Of a DNA stretch of 46,837 nt, positions 1-46,837 are shown one piece after another. How positions within the stretch are numbered: position 1 is the first letter of the stretch; each line of letters starts with the position of its first letter. Under the pieces are notes generated by a model. That model was not told where the DNA came from. It did no database searches and was given only the letters and a program-made list of their open reading frames with translations. Source of the DNA: a virus; the IMG/VR virus record IMGVR_UViG_3300009504_000002, positions 1 through 46,837 of that record. One strand, given 5' to 3'. Made by a program: the position numbers and the translations under genes.

Positions 1-123
1 AGACGACGCGCACACCACCACCACCGTGTCCTCACCGTCATGCAACGCGTACAAGTACCCCGGCAGCAACCGATCCGCGCTCGCCAACTTCAGCAACTCA
101 TGCACCGCCTGCGTCACCCCACG
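1..123. repeat. Direct terminal repeat, left copy
   Basis: Bases 1-123 are identical to 46715-46837. A perfect repeat confined to the two ends of a contig shows that the molecule was circular, or circularly permuted, when assembled. It lies inside the coding sequence of the ArgR-like gene, so it is more likely an assembly overlap than a physical packaging end. Confidence 0.95.
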
Positions 124-561
124 GCTGGTGTCGACCACCACCGTGCTCTCGTGCCGCAGCACGCGCAGCACATCAACCGCGAACCGATCGTGAAGCTCGA
201 GCATCAACGAGTCAGGCGTGTGGCCCTCAAGCAACTGCCAACGCGTCTTCTTCGACCCTGGCTTCAGTGGCACCCGCACCGCACCCAGCGATCGCAAGTC
301 GTTCTCGACCACCGTGATGCCGGGTGACAAGCCGAAGTACGCCTCCACCTGCTCCATCAGCATCCTGGTCGGCGCCCAGTCGATCGGCATCTGCAGCAGC
401 CGCAGTACGAACGCCCTTCGTTCCGCCCGCTGGCCCGCCGCCGCCGACTTGCCTATCGCGTACGCTCGCCAGTCCAGGATCGGCGCTTCCCTGGGGGCGA
501 TGCCCCTCAGGGAGCGCCTGCGATCCTGCGGCGGCTCAGAAGTCGGTTTGTTCCGCTCCAT
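1..561 (-). CDS. argR: ArgR-family arginine repressor-like protein (5' part; gene crosses the circular junction)
   Basis: The frame starts at ATG 561 and runs off the left edge. Through the terminal repeat it continues from 46714 to a stop at 46640, giving 211 aa. Residues about 48-105 resemble the ArgR winged helix-turn-helix, ending in a beta-wing-like GAVRV segment. Residues about 127-200 match the ArgR oligomerisation and arginine-binding domain: a [13 protein letters not shown] strand-helix (148-153 GVTQAV) and a DGEDT motif at 175-179 corresponding to the family GDDT loop. As I recall the E. coli protein, its ligand residues are Q106, D113, D128 and D129. Here the Q (151) and the acidic pair (E177, D178) are kept, but the D113 position is K158. 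The N-terminus is about 40 residues longer than usual. It overlaps the bet stop by 26 bp, with only a weak ribosome site. Family call fairly sure; operator and ligand unknown. Confidence 0.75.
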
Positions 562-1525
562 GTTCGCCACCGTCACCGGGTTGTGCTGTCGAGAGCGCGT
601 AGTCCGCGACGCGCCCTTCCCACGTCGGCGCGTCCGCTTGGAGAAGGGTGACGGCTTCTTCATGGGTCAACTCCCCGAGCTTGGCGATGGTGCGGCCGAC
701 GGCGAGGCTGATGATCGCCTTCACGTCGTTCATGTCGGGCACGCCCTGCTCAGCGAGTGCATCCAAGATCGCTTGCCCTTGCGCCTTGCTGGCGTGCTTG
801 CCGCTGGCGGCGGTCGGCTTCGATGCCGGCTTCGGCTTCTCGAACGGGTCGGCAGCCTCGATGACCTCGACGTCAAGCACCTCTTCGCGAGGCGCGATCG
901 GCAGGTCACGACGGTTCACCCTCGGCGGCGGCTCACTGGGCGGCACCACCGTCGGCGGCAGCACCTGCGTCTGCGCCATCTCCTCCTCCGTGTACAACCC
1001 ACCCAACTCCTGCGGGAACGCGCGCCGCAACGCCTGCGCCTCCGCCACCTTCGCGATCATCACGTCAGGCATGGTCGGCCACAAGCCCATCGGGCTGCCG
1101 TCCTTGCCCTTCTGCACGAACGACTTCCAGCGAGCGACAGCGAACAGCGGCTGATCGAACCCGCGCCGCATCACACCCACCCGCGCAGCAGCCGGCGGCT
1201 CATCCTCCAGCCACACGTCACGCCACACGCCATCAGGACCGCACCACTCCGGCCCCACCTGCCCCGCGTACTCACGGCTCCGCTGAGCGATCAACCGCAA
1301 CCCGTCGATGCTCACCTGCGTGGTCATCACCAGCCGCTTCTCCTGCGACGACCACCGCTTCACCGGGTAGATCTGCTTGGCGAACGCGTCGAGCTTGGTG
1401 CGGTTGCAGATCTGCAGGAACAACGCAAGCTCGTCGTCGGTGGCGCCTCGAGCGATGGTGCTCTTGATCAGGTCGATCTGTTCGCGCGGGATCTCCGGCG
1501 CGATCTTCGCCAGGTCGTGACTCAC
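536..1525 (-). CDS. bet: Bet/RecT-type single-strand annealing recombinase
   Basis: This 329-aa protein resembles lambda Red beta. Residues about 15-55 carry the hallmark pattern [20 protein letters not shown], followed by the [11 protein letters not shown] stretch. Residues about 65-110 give [17 protein letters not shown] and WCGPDGVW. Residues about 150-185 give [18 protein letters not shown], then [10 protein letters not shown]. Such proteins anneal complementary single strands during phage recombination. The last 120 residues are a variable, proline- and lysine-rich tail. GTG at 1525 is preferred: it overlaps the upstream stop as GTGA and follows GGGAG at 8 nt, whereas an in-frame TTG at 1540 has no good site. 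No partner lambda-Exo gene is adjacent; other nucleases sit nearby at 3836, 5107 and 45249. Confidence 0.9.
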
Positions 1526-1902
1526 GATTCCATCTCCCAACTCTCGAAGTCGCTGCGGCGGATGATCCAGCGGCTACCCACGCGCTTGGCGGGCAGCGAC
1601 CCAGACCGCAGCAGCTTGTACACGCTGGTCAGGCTGATCGGCAGCGCGTCAGCGATCTCCTGCGGCGTCACGAACTCGATGCGCACCCGCTCCGCCGCCT
1701 CCTCAGGGAACAGGCGCTGCTGACCCGGCAACGGCGCCGCCGCCTGCGGATGCAGGTAGTCAGCCAGTCGACCCATCAGCCCGTACACGCTGAACAACGC
1801 CAACCGAGCTACCTCAGCGTCGGACGCGTACGACCCGTCCGCCATCAGTTGCTCCCTGGTCGACCGAAGCTCCTCAGCCAGTTCCTTACCCGTCAGTGTC
1901 AT
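1522..1902 (-). CDS. Helix-turn-helix (excisionase/MerR-like) DNA-binding protein
   Basis: A 126-aa protein whose residues 79-122 form an excisionase-type winged helix: TPQEIADAL, then [20 protein letters not shown], then [12 protein letters not shown]. This is the classic helix, recognition helix and wing of the HTH_17/Xis family. The first 75 residues are helical and unlike known domains. ATG 1902 follows AGGAGG at 5 nt, and its stop overlaps the bet start. The position just ahead of bet suggests a regulator of the recombination genes; no integrase exists for it to act with as an excisionase. Family confident, role inferred. Confidence 0.8.
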
Positions 1903-2161
1903 CCCAAACCTCCTCAGCCATGCCCCGCTTCACCAGCGGATCGCCGTGCAAGTCTCGGTACTCCAGCACCGCGTCCGTGGGCACGCCCATCCCGTCAACC
2001 AACGGCATGTCCGCCACGAAGAGCGTTCTGGTACCCATCACGCACGTAGTGATCGCCCCTGTCTGGGCGCGGTAGTACGCCGCTCGCAGGCTGATGCCCG
2101 CCAGGTCCGCGTACTCCTCCGCCGTCAACAGGTTTGGACTGAGCGCAACCGTCCGCCTCAT
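1886..2161 (-). CDS. Small putative DNA-binding protein, first gene of the bet operon
   Basis: A 91-aa protein. ATG 2161 was chosen because AGGAGG (2168-2173) lies 6 nt upstream and a promoter lies just beyond. Residues about 11-35 (LTAEEYADLAGISLRAAYYRA) look like an HTH-type 'AEEYADLAGIS' segment seen in excisionase-like helices, followed by a short beta-rich stretch (CVMGTRTLFV) that could be a wing. The stop overlaps the next gene by 17 bp. It could be an autoregulator acting on the palindrome at 2198-2213, which is inference. Confidence 0.7.
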   Translation of the reverse strand: MRRTVALSPNLLTAEEYADLAGISLRAAYYRAQTGAITTCVMGTRTLFVADMPLVDGMGVPTDAVLEYRDLHGDPLVKRGMAEEVWDDTDG

Positions 2162-2188
2162 TCCGCACCTCCTCGCAATGCAATGCCA

Positions 2189-2217
2189 ATCATAGCAGTT
2201 GCGCCGGCGCAACAACG
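2189..2217 (-). promoter_or_regulatory. Leftward promoter of the HTH-bet operon
   Basis: On the minus strand TATGAT (2194-2189) is a near-consensus -10 box, preceded by an extended TGC. TTG-rich sequence at 2210-2217 provides a weak -35 at 15-17 bp spacing. The spacer is filled by a perfect 16-bp palindrome, so repressor binding there would occlude polymerase. The transcript would carry a short leader of about 20 nt with a good ribosome site. Confidence 0.65.
2198..2213. promoter_or_regulatory. 16-bp perfect palindrome, candidate operator (copy 1)
   Basis: GTTGCGCCGGCGCAAC is its own reverse complement and occurs again exactly at 6647-6662, the other intergenic gap of this leftward block. 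Here it lies directly upstream of the TATGAT -10 box. Position and repetition suggest an operator for a phage repressor. Confidence 0.6.
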
Positions 2218-2337: not shown

Positions 2338-2868
2338 ATGAGCAGCCGGCGGTTCAGTGGCGTCCTGTGGCCCATCGAAGTGCCACGAGTGACCCTTCCC
2401 TTCAGCGCAACGTGGACGCAGTGGTACAGCGACGAGCGTCCGCACCGTGGTGTCGACATCGCGCCGTGGCCCGGCAGCACCGGACGGCCAGTCCGATCGC
2501 CCATCCACGGCACCGTCGCGTACGTCCGCGAGTCGACCACCGCCGGCCTCGACCTCGCCATCACCGGCAGCGTTCCGTACCCGTGGGGCGCCAGCGACCT
2601 CAAGGGTCGGCACGTCGTGTTCGCTGCGGACGAACCGTTCCACATCCGCATGTGCCACCACAGTGAGATCCTGGTGGTCGAGAACCAACTGGTGGCTGCG
2701 GGTGATCTGATCGCGCGCATCGGCAACACCGGCGTCCAGTCGAGCGGCCCGCACGTTCACCTGGAGATCCGCAAGGGCGCGTTCGATGATTGGCTGGTGG
2801 TCGACCCGATGCACTTCTTCATTGCGGCCATACCCGGCCTCCGCCAAACGGTGGTCGGACTTCAGTAG
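2338..2868 (+). CDS. M23-family zinc metallopeptidase, probable endolysin
   Basis: A 176-aa protein with the LAS/lysostaphin-type metal site: H36 and D40 in HRGVD, and H141 of the HVH motif (139-141, GPHVHLEI). H107/H108 supply the catalytic histidine region. The glycines before and after (PIHGTVAYV, GDLIARIGNTG) are typical of M23 beta-sheets. Such enzymes cut peptide cross-links of peptidoglycan. There is no signal peptide, so release would need the membrane proteins encoded next (2919 and 3408). The family identification is secure; use in lysis rather than entry is inferred from its neighbours. Confidence 0.88.
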   Translation: MSSRRFSGVLWPIEVPRVTLPFSATWTQWYSDERPHRGVDIAPWPGSTGRPVRSPIHGTVAYVRESTTAGLDLAITGSVPYPWGASDLKGRHVVFAADEPFHIRMCHHSEILVVENQLVAAGDLIARIGNTGVQSSGPHVHLEIRKGAFDDWLVVDPMHFFIAAIPGLRQTVVGLQ

Positions 2869-2918
2869 GAGGTGATTCGCATCTACTCTCACGTCGTCCA
2901 CCTCAAGGAGGGAACATC

Positions 2919-3308
2919 ATGGTGAAGTACTTCACGTACATTCCGATCCTCATCGCATGGCTGCCGGAGATCATCAAGGCCGTCACCATCATCGAGGCGG
3001 TGCTCGACCCGAAGACACCGGGCGCCGAGAAGAAGCAGGCCGTGCTCGCGTACCTCAGCCAGGTGGCTGAGAAGACCAAGCTGCCGTGGGGTGAGCAGGC
3101 GATCGGCGTGGTGTCCAGCGTCATCGACACCGTGGTCGGCATCCTGAACTTCCTGCGGGTGTTCAGCAAGGCTGCCGACAAGCCGGCTGAGGTGACTGAC
3201 GCTGAACCCATCGTCACCGCCGCATCCGTCAACGAGCAGGTGGTCGAGGCGATGGAACACGACCCCATCCTGGACGCGTTCCTCAGCAAGGCACCGAAGG
3301 CGATCTAG
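2919..3308 (+). CDS. Putative holin-like or lysis-associated membrane protein
   Basis: A 129-aa protein; ATG 2919 follows AAGGAGG at a good distance. Hydrophobic stretches lie at about residues 5-29 (YIPILIAWLPEIIKAVTIIEAV) and 61-82 (AIGVVSSVIDTVVGILNFLRVF), separated by a charged helix, and the C-terminal 45 residues are acidic. Position directly after the endopeptidase gene and the hydrophobic pattern fit a holin or accessory lysis protein. The hydrophobic segments are mild, so an amphipathic, non-holin protein is possible. No named family is recognised. Confidence 0.55.
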   Translation: MVKYFTYIPILIAWLPEIIKAVTIIEAVLDPKTPGAEKKQAVLAYLSQVAEKTKLPWGEQAIGVVSSVIDTVVGILNFLRVFSKAADKPAEVTDAEPIVTAASVNEQVVEAMEHDPILDAFLSKAPKAI

Positions 3309-3407
3309 GGAATCGACGGAGGCCCCCAACTGGAGTAGCGTAGACTCAAGCCAGCGACGTGGGATCCTGGCAACATCTGCGCCATTCCTTGGGGGTTCCG
3401 CACCACG

Positions 3408-3743
3408 ATGGATCAAGCTCACATCCCGCCGCCTCATGATCCGACGCTGGCTGAGCGCGTACGACGACTGGAGGTTGTCGTGAACGGCAACGGTCGGCCA
3501 GGACTCGCTGAGAACGTGCGGTTGCTCATGACGCAGGGCGAAACGCACAAGACACTCCTCGAATGCGTGAAGAAGAGCACCGATCAACTGCTCGCCACTC
3601 GCATGGTCGATGAAGCTCGCAGGGAAGGCTCGAGGCGAGCGATCACCCAGATCCGAGGCATCGCCATCATCATGCTGGCGCTGCTGGGAATCGACCTCAG
3701 CGTCGGGTTGCGTGAGATGTTCTCGTTGCTGTCGCTCAGGTAA
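3408..3743 (+). CDS. Putative XhlA-like membrane-anchored lysis protein
   Basis: A 111-aa protein with a helical, coiled-coil-prone body (residues 15-80; ERVRRLEVVVNGNG is typical of phage proteins with this layout) and one C-terminal membrane segment at about 83-101 (IRGIAIIMLALLGIDLSVGL). This matches the layout of XhlA-type haemolysin or holin partners. It is the last gene before two hairpin terminators. No clear ribosome site precedes ATG 3408; a GGGGGTT stretch is somewhat far. The region 3309-3407 between this gene and the previous one holds no other gene. Confidence 0.5.
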   Translation: MDQAHIPPPHDPTLAERVRRLEVVVNGNGRPGLAENVRLLMTQGETHKTLLECVKKSTDQLLATRMVDEARREGSRRAITQIRGIAIIMLALLGIDLSVGLREMFSLLSLR

Positions 3744-3761
3744 CGCACGTACGATGGGCGC

Positions 3762-3778
3762 GCCGAGCGCCGCTCGGC
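3762..3778 (+). terminator. Hairpin downstream of the lysis genes
   Basis: GCCGAGC (3762-3768) pairs perfectly with GCTCGGC (3772-3778) around a 3-nt loop and is followed by TT. It lies 19 bp after the last lysis gene and before a second, longer hairpin. Confidence 0.5.
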
Positions 3779-3786
3779 TTGCGCTA

Positions 3787-3825
3787 GGGCCGACCGGAGC
3801 GCCCAAATCGACTACCGGTCGGCCC
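3787..3825. terminator. Bidirectional terminator between convergent units
   Basis: GGGCCGACCGG (3787-3797) and CCGGTCGGCCC (3815-3825) form a perfect 11-bp stem with a 17-nt loop, followed by a T-rich tail (GCTTCTGTCTTC). It separates the rightward lysis genes from the leftward exonuclease gene ending at 3836. Confidence 0.7.
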
Positions 3826-3835
3826 GCTTCTGTCT

Positions 3836-6565: not shown

Positions 6566-6646
6566 CACGCCTCCCATCACCGATCGCTCAGACCGGCGGT
6601 CCTACCGTGCGTCCTATCAGCCCGATCGCCGCGACTGGCCACGCGG

Positions 6647-6662
6647 TTGCGCCGGCGCAACG
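6647..6662. promoter_or_regulatory. 16-bp perfect palindrome, candidate operator (copy 2)
   Basis: This is identical to 2198-2213. It lies in the 126-bp gap 6566-6691, upstream of the leftward gene starting at 6565. No convincing -10 box was found close to it. The gap holds nothing else recognisable apart from a short GGGTCGACCC palindrome at 6664-6673. Confidence 0.5.
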
Positions 6663-7923: not shown

Positions 7924-7978
7924 GTCCCAACCTCCAGTGGCCTAGCTCGTCAGTGCAGGGCGGCCAACCCGCTGCAGT

Positions 7979-7996
7979 CGGCGCCCGCCGGCGCCG
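7979..7996 (-). terminator. GC hairpin between two leftward genes
   Basis: CGGCGCC (7979-7985) and GGCGCCG (7990-7996) form a 7-bp stem, extendable by a T-A pair, around a CGCC loop. It lies 8 bp past the stop of the upstream gene. There is no T-run in the leftward direction, so it may be an attenuator or a processing site. Confidence 0.35.
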
Positions 7997-8003
7997 ATTC
8001 GCC

Positions 8004-8180
8004 TCACTCGCCCTCGCTCGCCACCTCCCACCAGTGAACCTCCAGCATCCCGCGCCGCCTCAGATCATCCACCAGCACCCGCGCCGCCTCAGCGTCGACC
8101 ACATCGACCACCCGATGCGCCGTCCACTCCGGTCCACGATGCGCAGGATCACGCCACACCACCCGACACTCACCAACCAT
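8004..8180 (-). CDS. Small hypothetical protein
   Basis: A 58-aa protein: strands (ECRVVWRDP, TAHRVVDVVD), then a helix (AEAARVLVDDLRRRG), then a strand (LEVHWWEVA). This compact alpha/beta pattern suggests a folded domain. ATG 8180 overlaps the upstream stop as TGATG. No family recognised. Confidence 0.5.
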   Translation of the reverse strand: MVGECRVVWRDPAHRGPEWTAHRVVDVVDAEAARVLVDDLRRRGMLEVHWWEVASEGE

Positions 8181-24880: not shown

Positions 24881-27800
24881 ATGGAGCGCGTGCGCCTCGA
24901 GCAGTTGGTTGGCATGCAGCGCAATCCGGTGGAGGGCCTGAAGCAGGGGCCTGAGGTGTTGCGGAACTTGTACTTCGAGAAGGCGGGTGGGTACCTGCCG
25001 TTCGCGGTGCCGCGCCCGACGCCGTTCGCTGCGTTCTCGACTGCGGTGGCGCAGGGTGTGCGCGGGTACGATCCGAGGGGCACGGTCACGTCGGCTGAGG
25101 AGGTTGGCGGCGGGCTGGCGCGGTACGCGTTGGCTTGCGGGCCGTCGGTGCAGTTCAGTCAGCAGGAGTACGCGGCGTCGATCGCTCGTGAGGCGTCGGT
25201 GGTGCCGCACTTTGGGGCGTACGCGCAGCGTAGCTCGTACTTCGGTCGCGGGCTGGCTGATGGTTCGTTGTTGATTGAGCCTCTGCCGGTGCGGCCGACG
25301 ATCACGCAGGATTCGTTGGCGGCGGATGGCTCGGAGGTCGCCACGATCGAGGTGGCGTCGTTGACGTTCGCGAGCGCCACAGGCGCTGGGCGCGGCTCGC
25401 TGTTCGGCGTGACGTCCGGTGGGGATGTGTACAAACTCGATCTGGACGATCCAGACGGCGCGCCGGCGCTGATCGCCAGCTTGGGCGGCACTGCGGTGGA
25501 CATCGCGTACGGCAACGGTTGGCTTGTGGTGCTGAACAGCGCGTCCGTTGTGACGATGAGCGATGACGAGTTCGCCACGAGCAACACGCAGTCGTTGACG
25601 AACGCGAACTTGCGCTTGTCGTGGGATTCGCGTGGTGGACGGTTCTACGCGACGGGTGGCCGGTTGTTCCGGTCGGACGCGGTGGGCAGTGCGCCGTTCA
25701 CGTTCAGCGAGCGCGCCGACGAGTTCTCCGGCCTCACTGGCCCCGAGATCTTCGGCGCCGGCGTGGTGAACATCGACGGGTCGAACCTTTCGGCGCCGTT
25801 CTCGAACAGAATCCAAGCAGCCTATTCGGAGGACGGCGGCGTCAACTGGGCAACTTACCGGTGGACGTTGTGGACTGGCTTCTTGGGCGCCTTCAGGGTC
25901 GCCAACGAACCAGAAACGGTTGGCGCCTTGTCCAACCACGTTGCTACCGACGGTACCGGTACGGTGTTGGTGGCCGGCAACGACGGTTCTGTCTACAGGC
26001 GCAAGGACGCGTTGCTCGCCCCCAACGGTACGTTTCTTTCTCCTAACCACGGGGTAGAGGACAACACCTGGACTCGGCTGGCTGTCGATGTGGATGCCGG
26101 CGCTGCGCTGTTGTGGATCGGTTGGAACGCCCCGAGGCGCGTGTGGATGTGCAGCACCGCCACCGGCGGCGTGTTCGAGTCGACGGACGGGGTGTCGTGG
26201 ACGTTGGCGAGCCGTTTGTCTGGCGCGGTTAGCAGGCTCGCGTTTGACGACAACGGCAACTGGTACGCCAACGAGGTGGGTGGCGGCATCACTGGCTCGC
26301 CTGGGGTGCTGGGTTCGCCTGAGGGCCGGTACGTGGTCGCTGCGGTGGCGACCGTGCCGACGCCGGCTGGTGATGTGGTGACGGACGTGGCCACCCTGAG
26401 CGCGGACGTGACGGAGATGAACCCGGCGAGCTTGCGGGTGAACGTGCCGGAGTCGGTGACGACGGGCTGGTTGTCGACGTTGACGGCGTCGGAACGTGAC
26501 GCGTACCTGGCGGCGGTGCGGGTGTACGTGTACGTCGGGTACGACGGCGAGTTCGAGCAGGTGAACCCGGCGTTGTTCCTGGTGAAGGTGCTGCGGTTGG
26601 GTGACCCGTCGTATCTGCTGCGCCGCGAGACGATCGAGGCGGTGGCGACTGATTCGCTGCCGTCGTTCAACGTGCTGGACTTGCTGGGCAGCAAGGTGGA
26701 GCGGCACAACGGTCGCGTGTGGTTCACGATCCCGAAGTCGTACGAGGTGCCGTTGGTGGACGGCACGGAGGCGCCGCCGCCGCCGGCGCCGCCGGTGGGG
26801 GATGACGCGTACGTGTTCGCCGGCGATCCGACGCAGGCGGCGACACTGAGCACGCCGGAGGGCCGCGTTGACCTGACCGGCGGGGTGCCGATCACGCTGG
26901 GTGACGCTGCCGGGGTGACGGTGCGCGTCAGCGGCTTCGGTCGAGCGCAGCCTGAACCGCGTGTGCTGATCACGGAACTGTACCGGGCCACCGAGGTCAC
27001 GTTGACGCCGGGGTCGACGGTGACGGCGGTGCTGCCGCCCGTGATCACCGAGTCGGGCCTGCCGAACGTCGAGGTGACACTGAACCTGAACGTCGCCGGC
27101 ACCAGCTTGACGATGGTCAACATCGCTGCGGTGACGCCGGTGAACCTCCCGACGTACGGCGTCACCGACGTCGGGTACCGCATGGACTTCTTCCTGCGGG
27201 CTGCAGGGTCGGCGTTGCCGATCACGTTCCGACCCAACCCGTTCGGGCCGCAGGTGGTGAACACCGAGTTGCAGATCACCAGCGAGGGTGGCCCGTTCAC
27301 GCTTGCGTGGACGGAAGCTGGGTTCGTGAACCTGGCTGACCCGCTGAACTTTCTGAAGATCAGCAGCAGCACCAGCACCAGCATCACGGACATCGCGAGC
27401 GGCCCCGGTCAGCAGTTGTACGTGTTCCTGCAGAACGAGGTGTTCGCGGTGTACGGCGATCCAGACTTGGATCTCACAACCCGCATCGAGAACTTCGGCG
27501 TGAGGAAGCTCACTGGGGTTGTGGGTCACGACAGCGTGTTCCCGGTGGCGCGGTTGGGCAACGAACTGTACTGCGTGCATCGCGGTCAGGTGTTCGCGGT
27601 GAGTGAGCAGGGCGTGAACCCGCAGCCGATCAGCGCGCCGATCGACAAGCGCAGCGACCCGATCTTGCAGGTTGTCGGTGACGCTCGCCACAACCACTTG
27701 GTGGCGCGCACCCGCGACGGCGTGATCCTGCGGTTCGACGCGGAGAAGCAGCAGTGGTTCGAGGATCCGTGGTCCGGTCAGGACGTCAACCTGCTGCTGC

Positions 27801-41216: not shown

Positions 41217-41699
41217 TTACTTGGGTAGCTCAATGCGAGAGAGCGCAGCGAGTCCTACGGCGATCGCGTCCGCCACATCATGCTCAAGCACGTCATGCTG
41301 CGGGTACCGCTCTTGAGCGGCGGCGAGCATGGCGTCCTTGTCAGCGCGTCCGTTGCCGGCCAGCGCCTTCTTGGCGGTGCCGATGGGGATGCTGAGGATG
41401 GGAATGCCGAGGTGCCAAGCTCGCAGGTGCAGCGCGCCGACCATGCCGTAGTGGATCTCGAGGTGCCGCCCGCCGAGGCGCGCTCCGCCGGTCATGCGTT
41501 GCTCGTACGCGATCCAGTCGGTGTCCGCTTTCACCCACAGCGCAAGCCAGTTGCTGAAGGTGCTGAGCGTCTCACCGAGGGTGGTGGTGCTGGCGAACGA
41601 TGCGACCTCGACCCACTGCAGTTGCTGATCGCGCCAGCATGCGATGCCGGTGCGCGTCTTGCCTAGGTCGAGGCTCACTCCTCGAATCTGCGTCTCCAT
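41217..41699 (-). CDS. RuvC-fold Holliday junction resolvase-like nuclease
   Basis: A 160-aa protein with RNase H-like resolvase motifs: D11 in GVSLDLGKTRTGIA, E66 in WIAYEQRMTGGA, D120 and D122 in GRADKDAM, and D141/D144 in EHDVADAIAVGLAAL. The spacing and the late D-x-x-DA pattern are those of RuvC and phage junction resolvases. It would trim branched DNA before packaging. ATG 41699 lies inside the end of the upstream gene, with GAGG about 12 nt before it. Confidence 0.8.
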   Translation of the reverse strand: METQIRGVSLDLGKTRTGIACWRDQQLQWVEVASFASTTTLGETLSTFSNWLALWVKADTDWIAYEQRMTGGARLGGRHLEIHYGMVGALHLRAWHLGIPILSIPIGTAKKALAGNGRADKDAMLAAAQERYPQHDVLEHDVADAIAVGLAALSRIELPK

Positions 41700-42235
41700 G
41701 CTCGGACGGCCTCCTCTGCGTCGTACGGGTTGAAGAGCCAGCGGCCTTGCATGCTGCCGCTGGCTTTGGTGCGTCTGATGCGCGCGACGAGGTGCGCGCC
41801 TTCGCCGTCGCCGGCGAGCCACTTCCACATGGTGCGCTTGTGAACGCCGAACAGGCGAGCGAGCTTGTTGGTGTCGTAGTGGTGACCCGCGAGTTCTTGG
41901 GCGTCTTGCCGTTGGATGGACTGCTGGATGTACCGTTCCGCCCACTCGTGGGGTACGACGGCGACGTTGCGTCGTCCGGTGTGGAGCATGCGTGCTACCT
42001 GCGCTGCTTTGGCGGCTCGGGTGACGTTCTCGGTGCGGACGCCGGCTGCGGCGGCGACGATGCCGGCCCTGACGGTGGCGGCGACGTGCGCGTGCCGCAG
42101 CCCGAGGCGTACCGCTTGCTTCTGCACGGCTGCTTTGCTGCGTTGGATGCTCTTCGCGAGCGCGGTGGGTCCGTCCCGCCCGTACCTGGCTTTCAGGAGG
42201 GCGATCTCTCGCTCCGTCCAGGGCGGGCCGGCCAT
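41675..42235 (-). CDS. Myb/SANT-like plus HTH DNA-binding protein (paralogue of 43539)
   Basis: A 186-aa protein. Residues 5-45 (PPWTEREIALLKARYGRDGP, then SIQRSKAAVQKQAVRLGL) are a Myb/SANT-like helix bundle. Residues about 125-150 (TNKLARLFGVHKRTMWKWLA) form an HTH, followed by a wing-like RWLFNPYDAEEAV. The protein at 43539 has the same order of parts. Such proteins can act as late regulators or as remnants of homing-endonuclease DNA-binding parts. No nuclease motif is visible. Confidence 0.65.
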   Translation of the reverse strand: MAGPPWTEREIALLKARYGRDGPTALAKSIQRSKAAVQKQAVRLGLRHAHVAATVRAGIVAAAAGVRTENVTRAAKAAQVARMLHTGRRNVAVVPHEWAERYIQQSIQRQDAQELAGHHYDTNKLARLFGVHKRTMWKWLAGDGEGAHLVARIRRTKASGSMQGRWLFNPYDAEEAVRAWRRRFEE

Positions 42236-42238
42236 CGG

Positions 42239-42835
42239 CTACTCTTCGTCCTCCTCGCCGTGCATGCGGCGCCAGATGCCGCGCAGGCTCTCGTGCGTGC
42301 TGTCGAGGGCGAGGGTGCTCATGACTTCGATGAAGACGGTGGCGCTCATCTCGGGCCGGCCGACGGCCATCGCGAAGTTCTCTCGAGCTTGCTTGAGTAG
42401 CTCGGCCACGCCGGCGGTGATGCTGATGGTGGTGAACTCGTCCTCGGGCGCGCCGTGTTCCTGTCGGAGTTGCGCGAGGATCTCCTTGCGGGTGAGGTTG
42501 AGGAGCGCGTGGTAGTAGGTGGGTGCGTTGTCGGGCGTGATGTCGGTGTGCCGCGCGATCTCGTACGCGGTGTAGGGGCTGGTGCGCTTCATGTCGTGCA
42601 GCGGTATGCCGCCCCTGAGGCAGAACGCGTCGTACGCGGTGGCGACCTTGGTGGCGACGGTGCTGGGCAGCAGGTCGGTTTGCTCCTGCTCCTTGGCGGC
42701 GCGCACGGCTTCAGCGTAGTTGAAGTCGGCGGCGTCGCGGACGGCGTTGTACAGGCGCCCGAACTCCCAGAGGCTCTCGTTGGCGTCGTTGCTGTACTTG
42801 GCCAGGTCGCGGATGAGGGTGCTGTACGGGTTCAT
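42239..42835 (-). CDS. Hypothetical helical protein
   Basis: A 198-aa mostly helical protein, ATGA-coupled to the glycosyltransferase gene upstream. The first part (LIRDLAKYSNDANESLWEFG) suggests a helical bundle and the middle has SPYTAYEIARHTDITPDNAP, HTH-like in appearance. Function unknown; may be a DNA-binding accessory protein. Confidence 0.5.
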   Translation of the reverse strand: MNPYSTLIRDLAKYSNDANESLWEFGRLYNAVRDAADFNYAEAVRAAKEQEQTDLLPSTVATKVATAYDAFCLRGGIPLHDMKRTSPYTAYEIARHTDITPDNAPTYYHALLNLTRKEILAQLRQEHGAPEDEFTTISITAGVAELLKQARENFAMAVGRPEMSATVFIEVMSTLALDSTHESLRGIWRRMHGEEDEE

Positions 42836-43542
42836 GCGGGTTCCTGCGGTTGGAGCGCGTCGATGGCGGCGCCGTCGAGGTTGACGGGCTTGATGTGCCG
42901 CAGTGGGATGGTGAGGTCGCAGTACACCTTCCGTCCGCTGGCTCGCCACAGTTCGCAGAAGGCGTAGTCCTCACCCTGGTACTTCTGGCGATCGGGGAAG
43001 GTGGGGTGCCGGGTGAGGGTGTAGTCGAACAGGGCGTACAGGTGCCGCTCTGCGCCTTTGACGCGTTCGTCGTAGTACTGCAGGCCGGGGCGTTCGTCCA
43101 TCAGCGCGCGGATGGCGGGCAGTCGCATGCGTAGGAAGGCGGTGGGGATGGCTGCCACTTCTGCGACGCCGTCGACCACGTTGAAGTACTGCTGGCCTTC
43201 GGGGTTGGTGAGCGGCTGCAGCGCGAACGGGAAGTCGTCGCGGAAGTTGGCTTTCTGGCTGGCGCCGACGAGGTCGACGTCGTGCTTGAGGAGCCGCAGT
43301 AGGGCGGTGGGGTGGAACGCGATGTCGCTGTCGATGAAGACGGCTTCGTCGTAGCCCGTCTCGATGGCTTCGCTGATGAGTGCGTTGCGTGCTTTGGTGA
43401 CGCTGGCGATGTTGCCGTAGCTGATCCAGCCGACGGCGATGCCGTGCTTCTCGAGGTAGTTGCCGGCGCGCATGACGCTTTGGGCGTGTTGGGTGTGGAC
43501 TTGTCCGCCGTAGGCGGGGCTGAGGATCGCGACTCGTTTCAT
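42832..43542 (-). CDS. GT-A-type glycosyltransferase (family 2-like)
   Basis: A 236-aa protein. It begins with a Rossmann-like strand and loop (VAILSPAYGGQVHTQHAQSV) and continues with KARNALISEAIETGYDEAVF, then D71-S72-D73, the DxD-type metal/nucleotide-sugar motif, in IDSDIAFHP. This is the pattern of GT-A glycosyltransferases found in phages. The acceptor could be modified phage DNA, a virion protein, or a host surface component; the sequence does not tell. It lies between two Myb/HTH genes. ATG 43542 overlaps the upstream stop as ATGA. Confidence 0.75.
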   Translation of the reverse strand: MKRVAILSPAYGGQVHTQHAQSVMRAGNYLEKHGIAVGWISYGNIASVTKARNALISEAIETGYDEAVFIDSDIAFHPTALLRLLKHDVDLVGASQKANFRDDFPFALQPLTNPEGQQYFNVVDGVAEVAAIPTAFLRMRLPAIRALMDERPGLQYYDERVKGAERHLYALFDYTLTRHPTFPDRQKYQGEDYAFCELWRASGRKVYCDLTIPLRHIKPVNLDGAAIDALQPQEPA

Positions 43543-45252: not shown

Positions 45253-45719
45253 CCTAGATCCTCCATTGGCCGCAAGTGATCCTGCGGCATCATGAACCCG
45301 CACCGTCCCGACCCGCGCTTCATCTCGGACCAGTACTGCGGCTGCTTCACGTCGCGACCGAACGCCCACCCGACAAGGTCGTACGTTCCAAGCTGCCCGA
45401 CCGCCAGCACGTACGGCTTGTCGTCGTCCGCTCCTCGCGGCAGAAGCAAACGGCCCTTCTCCCATCGCGTGGTCTTCACCTCGTAGCGGCCGGCGTCCTC
45501 ACCTCTGAACTTCGAGACACCCGACCAGTACACGCCTAACCCCTTGGCCGCAGCCATCTCTCCGAGTGCGCCTTCGATGTCGATCATCCATCGGTCCACT
45601 TCGTGTTCGGGGCGCTCGTCGTCGGTGTCGATTCGGCCTTTGCCGATGGCTGTGCAGGCGCGCATGATGCCTTGCGTGGCGCCCAAGAACAACTCCTGCG
45701 GCGTCAACTTGACGATCAC
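45249..45719 (-). CDS. PD-(D/E)XK-type nuclease
   Basis: A 156-aa protein with GALGEMAAAKGLG (E54), then D75 in RGEDAGRYE, and E80-V-K82 in RYEVKTTRW. These form the E...D...ExK core of PD-(D/E)XK nucleases. Related phage proteins with a GAxGExAxAKxL start and YEVRTR-like strand are common. Possible roles are recombination or host DNA attack. GTG 45719 overlaps the upstream TAG. Confidence 0.7.
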   Translation of the reverse strand: MIVKLTPQELFLGATQGIMRACTAIGKGRIDTDDERPEHEVDRWMIDIEGALGEMAAAKGLGVYWSGVSKFRGEDAGRYEVKTTRWEKGRLLLPRGADDDKPYVLAVGQLGTYDLVGWAFGRDVKQPQYWSEMKRGSGRCGFMMPQDHLRPMEDLG

Positions 45720-46531
45720 TACAGCCCTCCGATGGCGTCAGCGATCGCCTTCGCCGTGCCAGCCAACTTCCGATCACCCGCCGACAAGCCACCACCAGCC
45801 GCGAACTTCTCAGCCTTCTCCACCACCCGACCCTCCACCAGCAAGTTGTCGAGGCCGTACCCCTTCTCCACCCAGTACGGATCGCCAGCCACCTGCCGCG
45901 CCGCCGCGCGGAAGATCTGCTCCGCCTCAGCGCCAAGCTCACGGCGTAGCTTCGCGAACTTCTTGCGCCTCGCTGCGGTGGCGATGCGAACGACGGGAAG
46001 GGCGCCGCAGTTGTCGTTCCAGATCTCCAGGAAGGCGTCGGTGAATCCTGCCACCTTGGTGGGTGGGTTGGCTTGTCCGTTGCTGTAGATGGTGAGGGTG
46101 TCCTCACGCGTCGGCTTTGCCGACAAGGGTTGTAGACCTTCTTCGTGTTCGTCAGTCTTCGTCCCTACAGTCTTCGTTACGTGCGGTTCTCCGACGTCGG
46201 ATTCTCCGACGTGCGAAAACCGCACGTCGGTGGGTTCGTCACCGACCACGTACTGCCATCCCCTCAGTCGACCAGCCTCGTCCCTGACGGCGTTGCGGGT
46301 AACGTACCCAGCCTCGGCCAGTTCGTTGAAGGCGCTTCGGGTTGCGGCTAGACCGTCCCGAGTCTGCTGCGAAAGGTACTTCAGGCTGTGATCCCAGTCG
46401 TCGGGGTACGACAGCATCAGCAGCAGCAAGCCCTTCGCCTTCAGGCTCAGGTGTGGTGATCGGACGATCTCGTTCGGGAGGGTCGTGAAGTGCTTCTTCC
46501 GTCGTGCCGTGTAGTAGGAGCGAATGTTCAC
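45719..46531 (-). CDS. DnaD-like / winged-helix replication initiation protein
   Basis: A 270-aa protein from GTG 46531, with GGAG at about 8 nt. Residues about 14-90 form a winged helix (HFTTLPNEIVRSPHLSLKAK, GLLLLMLSYPDDWDHSLKYL, then AFNELAEAGYVTR), the usual start of phage replisome-organiser proteins. A polar linker (residues about 105-160) is followed by a C-terminal helical domain (VAGFTDAFLEIWNDNCGALP ... FRAAARQVAGDP) like DnaD-type DNA remodelling domains. It would load host helicase at the phage origin, inferred from family. A TATATC box upstream may be its promoter. Confidence 0.65.
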   Translation of the reverse strand: MNIRSYYTARRKKHFTTLPNEIVRSPHLSLKAKGLLLLMLSYPDDWDHSLKYLSQQTRDGLAATRSAFNELAEAGYVTRNAVRDEAGRLRGWQYVVGDEPTDVRFSHVGESDVGEPHVTKTVGTKTDEHEEGLQPLSAKPTREDTLTIYSNGQANPPTKVAGFTDAFLEIWNDNCGALPVVRIATAARRKKFAKLRRELGAEAEQIFRAAARQVAGDPYWVEKGYGLDNLLVEGRVVEKAEKFAAGGGLSAGDRKLAGTAKAIADAIGGL

Positions 46532-46607
46532 CTTGAACTCCAACCCTGCCGGTCGGATATACTGCGCGTGCACGCGCCAGCGTCTTCTGCACACGCAGCC
46601 CGACAGG

Positions 46608-46628
46608 AGGCCCCCCAACAGGGGGCCT
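46608..46628. terminator. Hairpin between the ArgR-like and DnaD-like genes
   Basis: AGGCCCCC (46608-46615) pairs with GGGGGCCT (46621-46628) around a CAACA loop. It lies 12 bp beyond the ArgR-like stop in the leftward direction. No T-run is present in that direction; on the plus strand TCGT follows. It may end the bet-ArgR transcript before the promoter of the DnaD-like gene. Confidence 0.5.
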
Positions 46629-46639
46629 TCGTCATGCTA

Positions 46640-46837
46640 TCAGCCGAACGCCTTCTTCGGTCGGGCCGCGTGCAGCACGCGATTCAACCGATCAACCCAC
46701 TCCATAGCCGAACCAGACGACGCGCACACCACCACCACCGTGTCCTCACCGTCATGCAACGCGTACAAGTACCCCGGCAGCAACCGATCCGCGCTCGCCA
46801 ACTTCAGCAACTCATGCACCGCCTGCGTCACCCCACG
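46640..46837 (-). CDS. argR: ArgR-family repressor-like protein (3' part; continuation of the gene at 1-561)
   Basis: The open frame enters from the right edge and stops at 46640. Bases 46715-46837 duplicate 1-123, so this is the same gene as at 1-561, seen after the circular junction. It encodes the C-terminal part ([14 protein letters not shown], then GSAMEWVDRLNRVLHAARPK), the oligomerisation and ligand-binding helix of ArgR proteins. The unique part is residues 188-211. Confidence 0.75.
   Translation of the reverse strand, partial: RGVTQAVHELLKLASADRLLPGYLYALHDGEDTVVVVCASSGSAMEWVDRLNRVLHAARPKKAFG
46715..46837. repeat. Direct terminal repeat, right copy
   Basis: Identical to 1-123. Together they show that the contig closes on itself at a unique length of 46,714 bp. 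Confidence 0.95.

Follow-up and report, generated by a model that had tools for sequence, protein, structure and literature searches.

A divergent ArgR-fold protein encoded among recombination and replication genes of a phage

The DNA analysed is a phage contig of 46,837 nt from an IMG/VR record, taken at its full length (the window). Its first 123 bases recur with exact identity at the opposite end, so that the contig either closes to a circle of 46,714 bases or is terminally redundant over a short length. A minus-strand gene, here called the ArgR-like gene, encloses the repeat and is split by the contig ends (Table 1). Upon joining the ends, the frame opened by the ATG at 561 runs to base 1, resumes at 46714 and closes at 46640, giving 636 nt and 211 aa with a single terminal stop. 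The joined gene, proposed in an earlier note on this sequence, is confirmed by the exact repeat, by the open frame and by base composition. The G+C content at the three codon positions (0.656/0.467/0.835) matches that of the adjoining RecT gene (0.681/0.463/0.842), and the last 198 nt, junction included, are also RecT-like (0.652/0.455/0.803). The join is further supported because the match to ArgR carries on past the junction to residue 200. The GVTQAV and GEDT motifs picked out in the same note reside at residues 148-153 and 176-179, and the extended N-terminus measures 46 residues, provided that translation begins at the ATG at 561; the first in-frame ATG after it (390) already falls within the domain that follows.

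The ArgR-like gene is the last of an apparent minus-strand operon, in the order small HTH-like protein, HTH_17 protein, RecT, ArgR-like protein. A Pfam search with the small HTH-like protein gave no match. The RecT gene, with its stop codon at 536-538, and the start of the ArgR-like gene share 26 bases, and the next gene downstream encodes a replication-initiator-like protein. The hairpin found between the two may mark the end of the operon. The genome holds exactly two copies of GTTGCGCCGGCGCAAC, the only perfect 16-bp palindrome to be repeated, and both lie upstream of minus-strand (leftward) genes. This palindrome is likely a phage operator, and as such a candidate target of either the ArgR-like protein or other HTH proteins of the phage.

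Table 1. Features of the ArgR-like gene and its surroundings in the window
Feature	Position	Strand	Basis and remarks
ArgR-like gene, codons 1-187	1..561	-	N-terminal extension 1-46, wHTH ~47-112, most of the C-terminal core
RecT-family annealing protein gene	536..1525	-	PF03837 E=2.6e-27, phrog_2780 E=9.5e-65; inferred start near 1525, the ORF staying open to 1540
HTH_17 excisionase-like DNA-binding protein	1522..1902	-	PF12728 E=1e-13; just upstream of RecT
Small HTH-like protein, opening the apparent operon	1886..2162 (ATG 2162)	-	ORF and start context
Perfect 16-bp palindrome GTTGCGCCGGCGCAAC	2198..2213		3 bases before a TATGAT box, ~35 before ATG 2162
Second exact copy of GTTGCGCCGGCGCAAC	6646..6661		In the gap preceding the minus-strand gene whose start is at 6580
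Replication-initiator-like protein (HTH_36; PHROG replication initiation / DnaD-like)	45719..46531, start inferred	-	PF13730 E=5.4e-8, phrog_4707 E=1.1e-19
14-bp perfect palindrome GCGCGTGCACGCGC	46564..46577		2 bases before TATATC, ahead of the replication initiator
Perfect 8-bp G+C hairpin without T run	46608..46628		After the ArgR-like gene
ArgR-like gene, codons 188-211 and stop	46640..46714	-	Across the circular junction
Terminal repeat, second copy of bases 1-123	46715..46837		Exact match; inside the ArgR-like gene

Other features of the window were recorded. A gene for an M23 peptidase (PF01551), followed by small ORFs (2338-3835, plus strand), is embedded in opposite orientation to the early genes and diverges from the RecT operon; the group is probably a lysis cassette. 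A type II hammerhead ribozyme (7936-8004, minus strand; Rfam RF02276, 43.2 bits against a gathering score of 37), with its catalytic core CUGACGAG...GAA, lies immediately upstream of the leftward early genes; no such ribozyme was found in the six related-phage loci searched. A RuvC-like Holliday junction resolvase is encoded at 41217-41945 on the minus strand (phrog_159, E=5.2e-22), and a glycosyltransferase-like protein with a weak Anp1 match at 42832-43542 on the same strand.

The 211-aa protein matches the ArgR profile TIGR01529 of NCBIfam over residues 85-200 (E=3.9e-6; 26.9 bits, below the curated cut-off of 130.45) and PF02863 of Pfam over residues 131-198 (E=0.0022; 18.2 bits, below the cut-off of 25). 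Against a custom profile built from ten reference ArgRs it scores 30.0 bits, and the copy found in a related phage (see below) 26.0 bits; among 10,000 shuffles of these two proteins no score exceeded 10.6. Profile-profile alignment of the phage pair with the ten ArgRs by hhalign gave 97.4% over residues 45-201, both domains being covered. Identity to any ArgR is only about 20%. An AlphaFold2 model of residues 43-187, the last helix being left out, was obtained from an alignment of three rows, one of them a true ArgR and the others the phage pair (pLDDT 79). Its secondary-structure elements follow the ArgR order, and the top 30 matches of a PDB fold search are all ArgRs, the C-terminal core superimposing with an rmsd of 1.1-2.8. 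Over the whole chain, the TM to ArgRs reaches only about 0.4, which probably stems from a different placement of the two domains. Since the alignment contains a true ArgR row, the fold is supporting evidence, not independent of the sequence; the single-sequence model of residues 1-187 was poor (pLDDT 35).

Taken with the structures 1f9n, 1b4a, 3ere and 1xxa, these comparisons place in the 211-aa protein the architecture of ArgR and AhrC, a winged-helix N-terminal domain and an alpha-beta C-terminal core, with elements in the same order (HHH-EE followed by H-EE-H-EE, residues 45-201). Homology to ArgR is virtually certain, and the family assignment made in the earlier note, for which a comparison of profiles and structures with ArgR/AhrC had been suggested, holds at all three levels, profile, profile-profile and fold. 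Tree building joins the phage pair with weak support (77/95), on very long branches.

Residues were compared in an alignment of the two phage copies with the ten reference ArgRs, following the E. coli numbering. Ser47-Arg48 of the recognition helix, the pair by which ArgR contacts DNA, is conserved in nine of the ten references, and is replaced by Glu-Asn in the 211-aa protein and by Lys-Gly in the related copy. At the Asp113 column all ten references have Asp, both phage proteins Lys; this is K158 of the 211-aa protein, and the lysine said earlier to replace a ligand aspartate is so located. The Gly-Asp-Asp turn reads Gly-Glu-Asp in the 211-aa protein and Asp-Glu-Asp in the other copy, the Asp128 column being Glu in both (E177 in the 211-aa protein), and Arg110 is Glu in the former, Thr in the latter. 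The change at Asp128 and the loss of Ser-Arg add to those noticed at first reading. Equivalents of Gln106 and Thr130 are retained in the 211-aa protein only, that of Asp129 in both copies; the 211-aa protein also retains Gly103, and has a longer loop than ArgR between helix 5 and strand 5.

In E. coli ArgR, L-arginine is contacted by Gln106, Asp113, Asp128, Asp129 and Thr130 (PMC2880562). Gly-Asp-Asp is the only conserved stretch longer than two residues in four aligned ArgRs, and some ArgRs have no equivalent of Asp128 (PMC7248756). The changes in ligand pocket and recognition helix suggest that arginine sensing and reading of ARG boxes are probably lost or altered. The loss of arginine sensing raised in the earlier note is backed to this extent by the pocket substitutions, as a prediction from sequence; since Gln106, Asp129 and Thr130 have equivalents, the pocket could still accommodate some ligand, perhaps arginine. 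The 211-aa protein is likely not a standard arginine repressor. Scoring far below the cut-offs, lacking Gly-Asp-Asp and Ser-Arg, and encoded by a phage without an excess of ARG boxes, it is best classed as a divergent homologue with the ArgR fold.

The second copy was found in a related phage (G039), whose terminase is 57% identical and which is syntenic with the window through the structural genes. This copy is independent, shows 23-25% identity to the 211-aa protein, and is cut at the contig end before its N-terminus. Searched on its own, it hits TIGR01529 (E=2.9e-6) as well as the crystal structures 1f9n (E=0.011) and 1b4a (E=0.028). Its gene overlaps a 117-aa gene in ATGA style, followed by genes for a DnaB helicase and a PolB-type exonuclease. 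Taking this locus with the RecT/initiator locus of the window, both copies sit among replication and recombination genes, and their neighbours differ. The related phage also encodes a RusA-type resolvase (26681-27064) and a counterpart, 40% identical, of the glycosyltransferase-like protein, to which over 500 proteins of viral contigs are distantly related. Both phage contigs end inside the ArgR-like gene (G039:C1:31842, the end of L052, in the related phage); this may be chance, or may reflect a break point of packaging or assembly.

No further members of the lineage, which counts these two proteins, were found. PHROGs v4 holds no family recognising ArgR, and the viral folds of BFVD gave no match at E<=0.001. 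Scans using the 211-aa protein, the related copy and AhrC on viral contigs, and the phage pair and a terminase alignment on genome contigs, were likewise negative; the lineage is either rare, or too diverged to be detected by exact-word scans. ArgR-like ORFs were found in none of 38 RecT-related and none of 80 glycosyltransferase-related loci. The canonical pattern GTIAGDDT was met in viral contigs in one ArgR (present in two contigs) and in unrelated proteins. ArgR matches among 50,697 phage records correspond to unannotated clones or to a bacterial contig, and were rejected as phage relatives. The nearest of them (L063) comes from an unverified "phage" record which is evidently host DNA. A divergent ArgR paralogue encoded in a staphylococcal arginine deiminase operon, it is the nearest cellular relative, scoring 28.4 bits with the profile of the phage pair. 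Like the phage proteins, it lacks both Ser-Arg (Ala-Lys) and Gly-Asp-Asp (Gly-Asn-Asp); unlike them, it keeps Asp113 and adjoins genes of arginine metabolism, arcA and arcB.

The best explanation, advanced tentatively, is that the 211-aa protein is an arginine-independent, probably hexameric DNA-binding protein, serving the recombination/replication module of the phage as regulator or scaffold. The reading draws on the gene, its two-domain homology, its fold, the residue changes, the second copy and the position of the gene; the hexamer, its independence of arginine, the binding sites and the role are its predicted parts. The changes in arginine-binding and DNA-reading residues suggest that the protein probably controls or organises the DNA of the virus rather than arginine genes. 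The winged-helix domain, preceded by a basic N-terminal tail and joined to the ArgR oligomerisation core, would assemble into an ArgR-like hexamer with no need for L-arginine, and would bind phage DNA instead of the arginine operators of the host. It could then regulate the module locally, possibly through the repeated palindrome GTTGCGCCGGCGCAAC upstream of the operon, or alternatively act as a scaffold bridging DNA within the module. Of the two roles, regulation appears the more likely. How the hexamer could dispense with arginine is a matter for speculation: the resident Lys at the Asp113 position, facing the Glu at the Asp128 position, may conceivably fill the pocket and lock the hexamer in its active state, in which case the phage lineage would have converted ArgR to switch or organise its own recombination and replication without sensing arginine.

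Less likely than a regulator or scaffold of this kind is a mainly architectural partner of RecT or the replication machinery, a hexamer that bridges or bends phage DNA in the manner of ArgR and PepA at plasmid cer, and that regulates no promoter. The overlap with RecT, the location of the related copy before DnaB, and the Holliday-junction resolvases of both phages (RuvC-like phrog_159 and RusA) fit such a partner, as does the known accessory role of ArgR at cer (PMC2409434), which is the nearest parallel for an ArgR-type protein close to recombination functions. The parallel is incomplete: no tyrosine or serine recombinase, XerC/D-like proteins included, was found in the phage, whose ArgR-like protein neighbours an annealing protein of the RecT family; use of host Xer proteins is conceivable. 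No iterons or clustered repeats were found near the gene, and RecT relatives occur without an ArgR-like neighbour, as the 38 loci indicate. Of the recombination role earlier suggested, the literal cer/XerCD version is thus unsupported, no such recombinase having been found in the phage, whereas a part in phage recombination or replication fits the RecT and DnaB positions.

It is improbable that the protein is an auxiliary metabolic regulator seizing the arginine genes of the host. The homology to ArgR is genuine, Gln106, Asp129 and Thr130 have equivalents in the 211-aa protein, and phages are known to control host arginine and polyamine metabolism elsewhere, by other phage proteins, Eht1 and Eht2 (PMC11898732). 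Against this, Ser-Arg is lost in both copies, Asp113 and Asp128 are changed, no arginine-related gene is found among the annotated genes of the phage, and ARG-box-like sites in the phage DNA, the only DNA searched, are not enriched (38 found, 52 expected). Tandem pairs of ARG-box-like palindromes are not significant either, the best (region 2130-2345) being reached in 9 of 200 shuffles when seven regions were tested. The reprogramming of host arginine metabolism envisaged in the earlier note is accordingly unsupported.

More improbable still is a subunit poison, in which the core would join host ArgR in mixed hexamers unable to bind ARG boxes, and so derepress host arginine synthesis during infection. 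An oligomerisation core that keeps the ArgR fold, next to a recognition helix devoid of Ser-Arg, fits such a protein; yet an identity of only about 20% to any ArgR, the longer helix 5-strand 5 loop and the altered pocket residues at the trimer-trimer interface make co-assembly unlikely. That the likeness to ArgR is due to chance, or the joined frame to faulty assembly, is scarcely credible: single-profile scores are modest and below curated cut-offs, yet the match recurs in a second phage copy that lies within one contig, shuffles never come near, the top 30 fold matches are all ArgRs, and the codon-position signal spans the join.

Compared with ArgR and AhrC, the phage protein retains equivalents of Gly103, Gln106, Asp129 and Thr130, and differs by Ser-Arg to Glu-Asn, Asp113 to Lys, Asp128 to Glu and Arg110 to Glu, by the basic N-terminal extension of 46 residues and the longer helix 5-strand 5 loop, and by its location in a phage replication/recombination locus. 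ArgR is both an amino-acid sensor and a hexameric DNA-bridging protein. A phage ArgR fold in which pocket and DNA-reading residues are altered would show what this fold can do without arginine, and would offer a test of the proposal that resident charged residues can substitute for the ligand.
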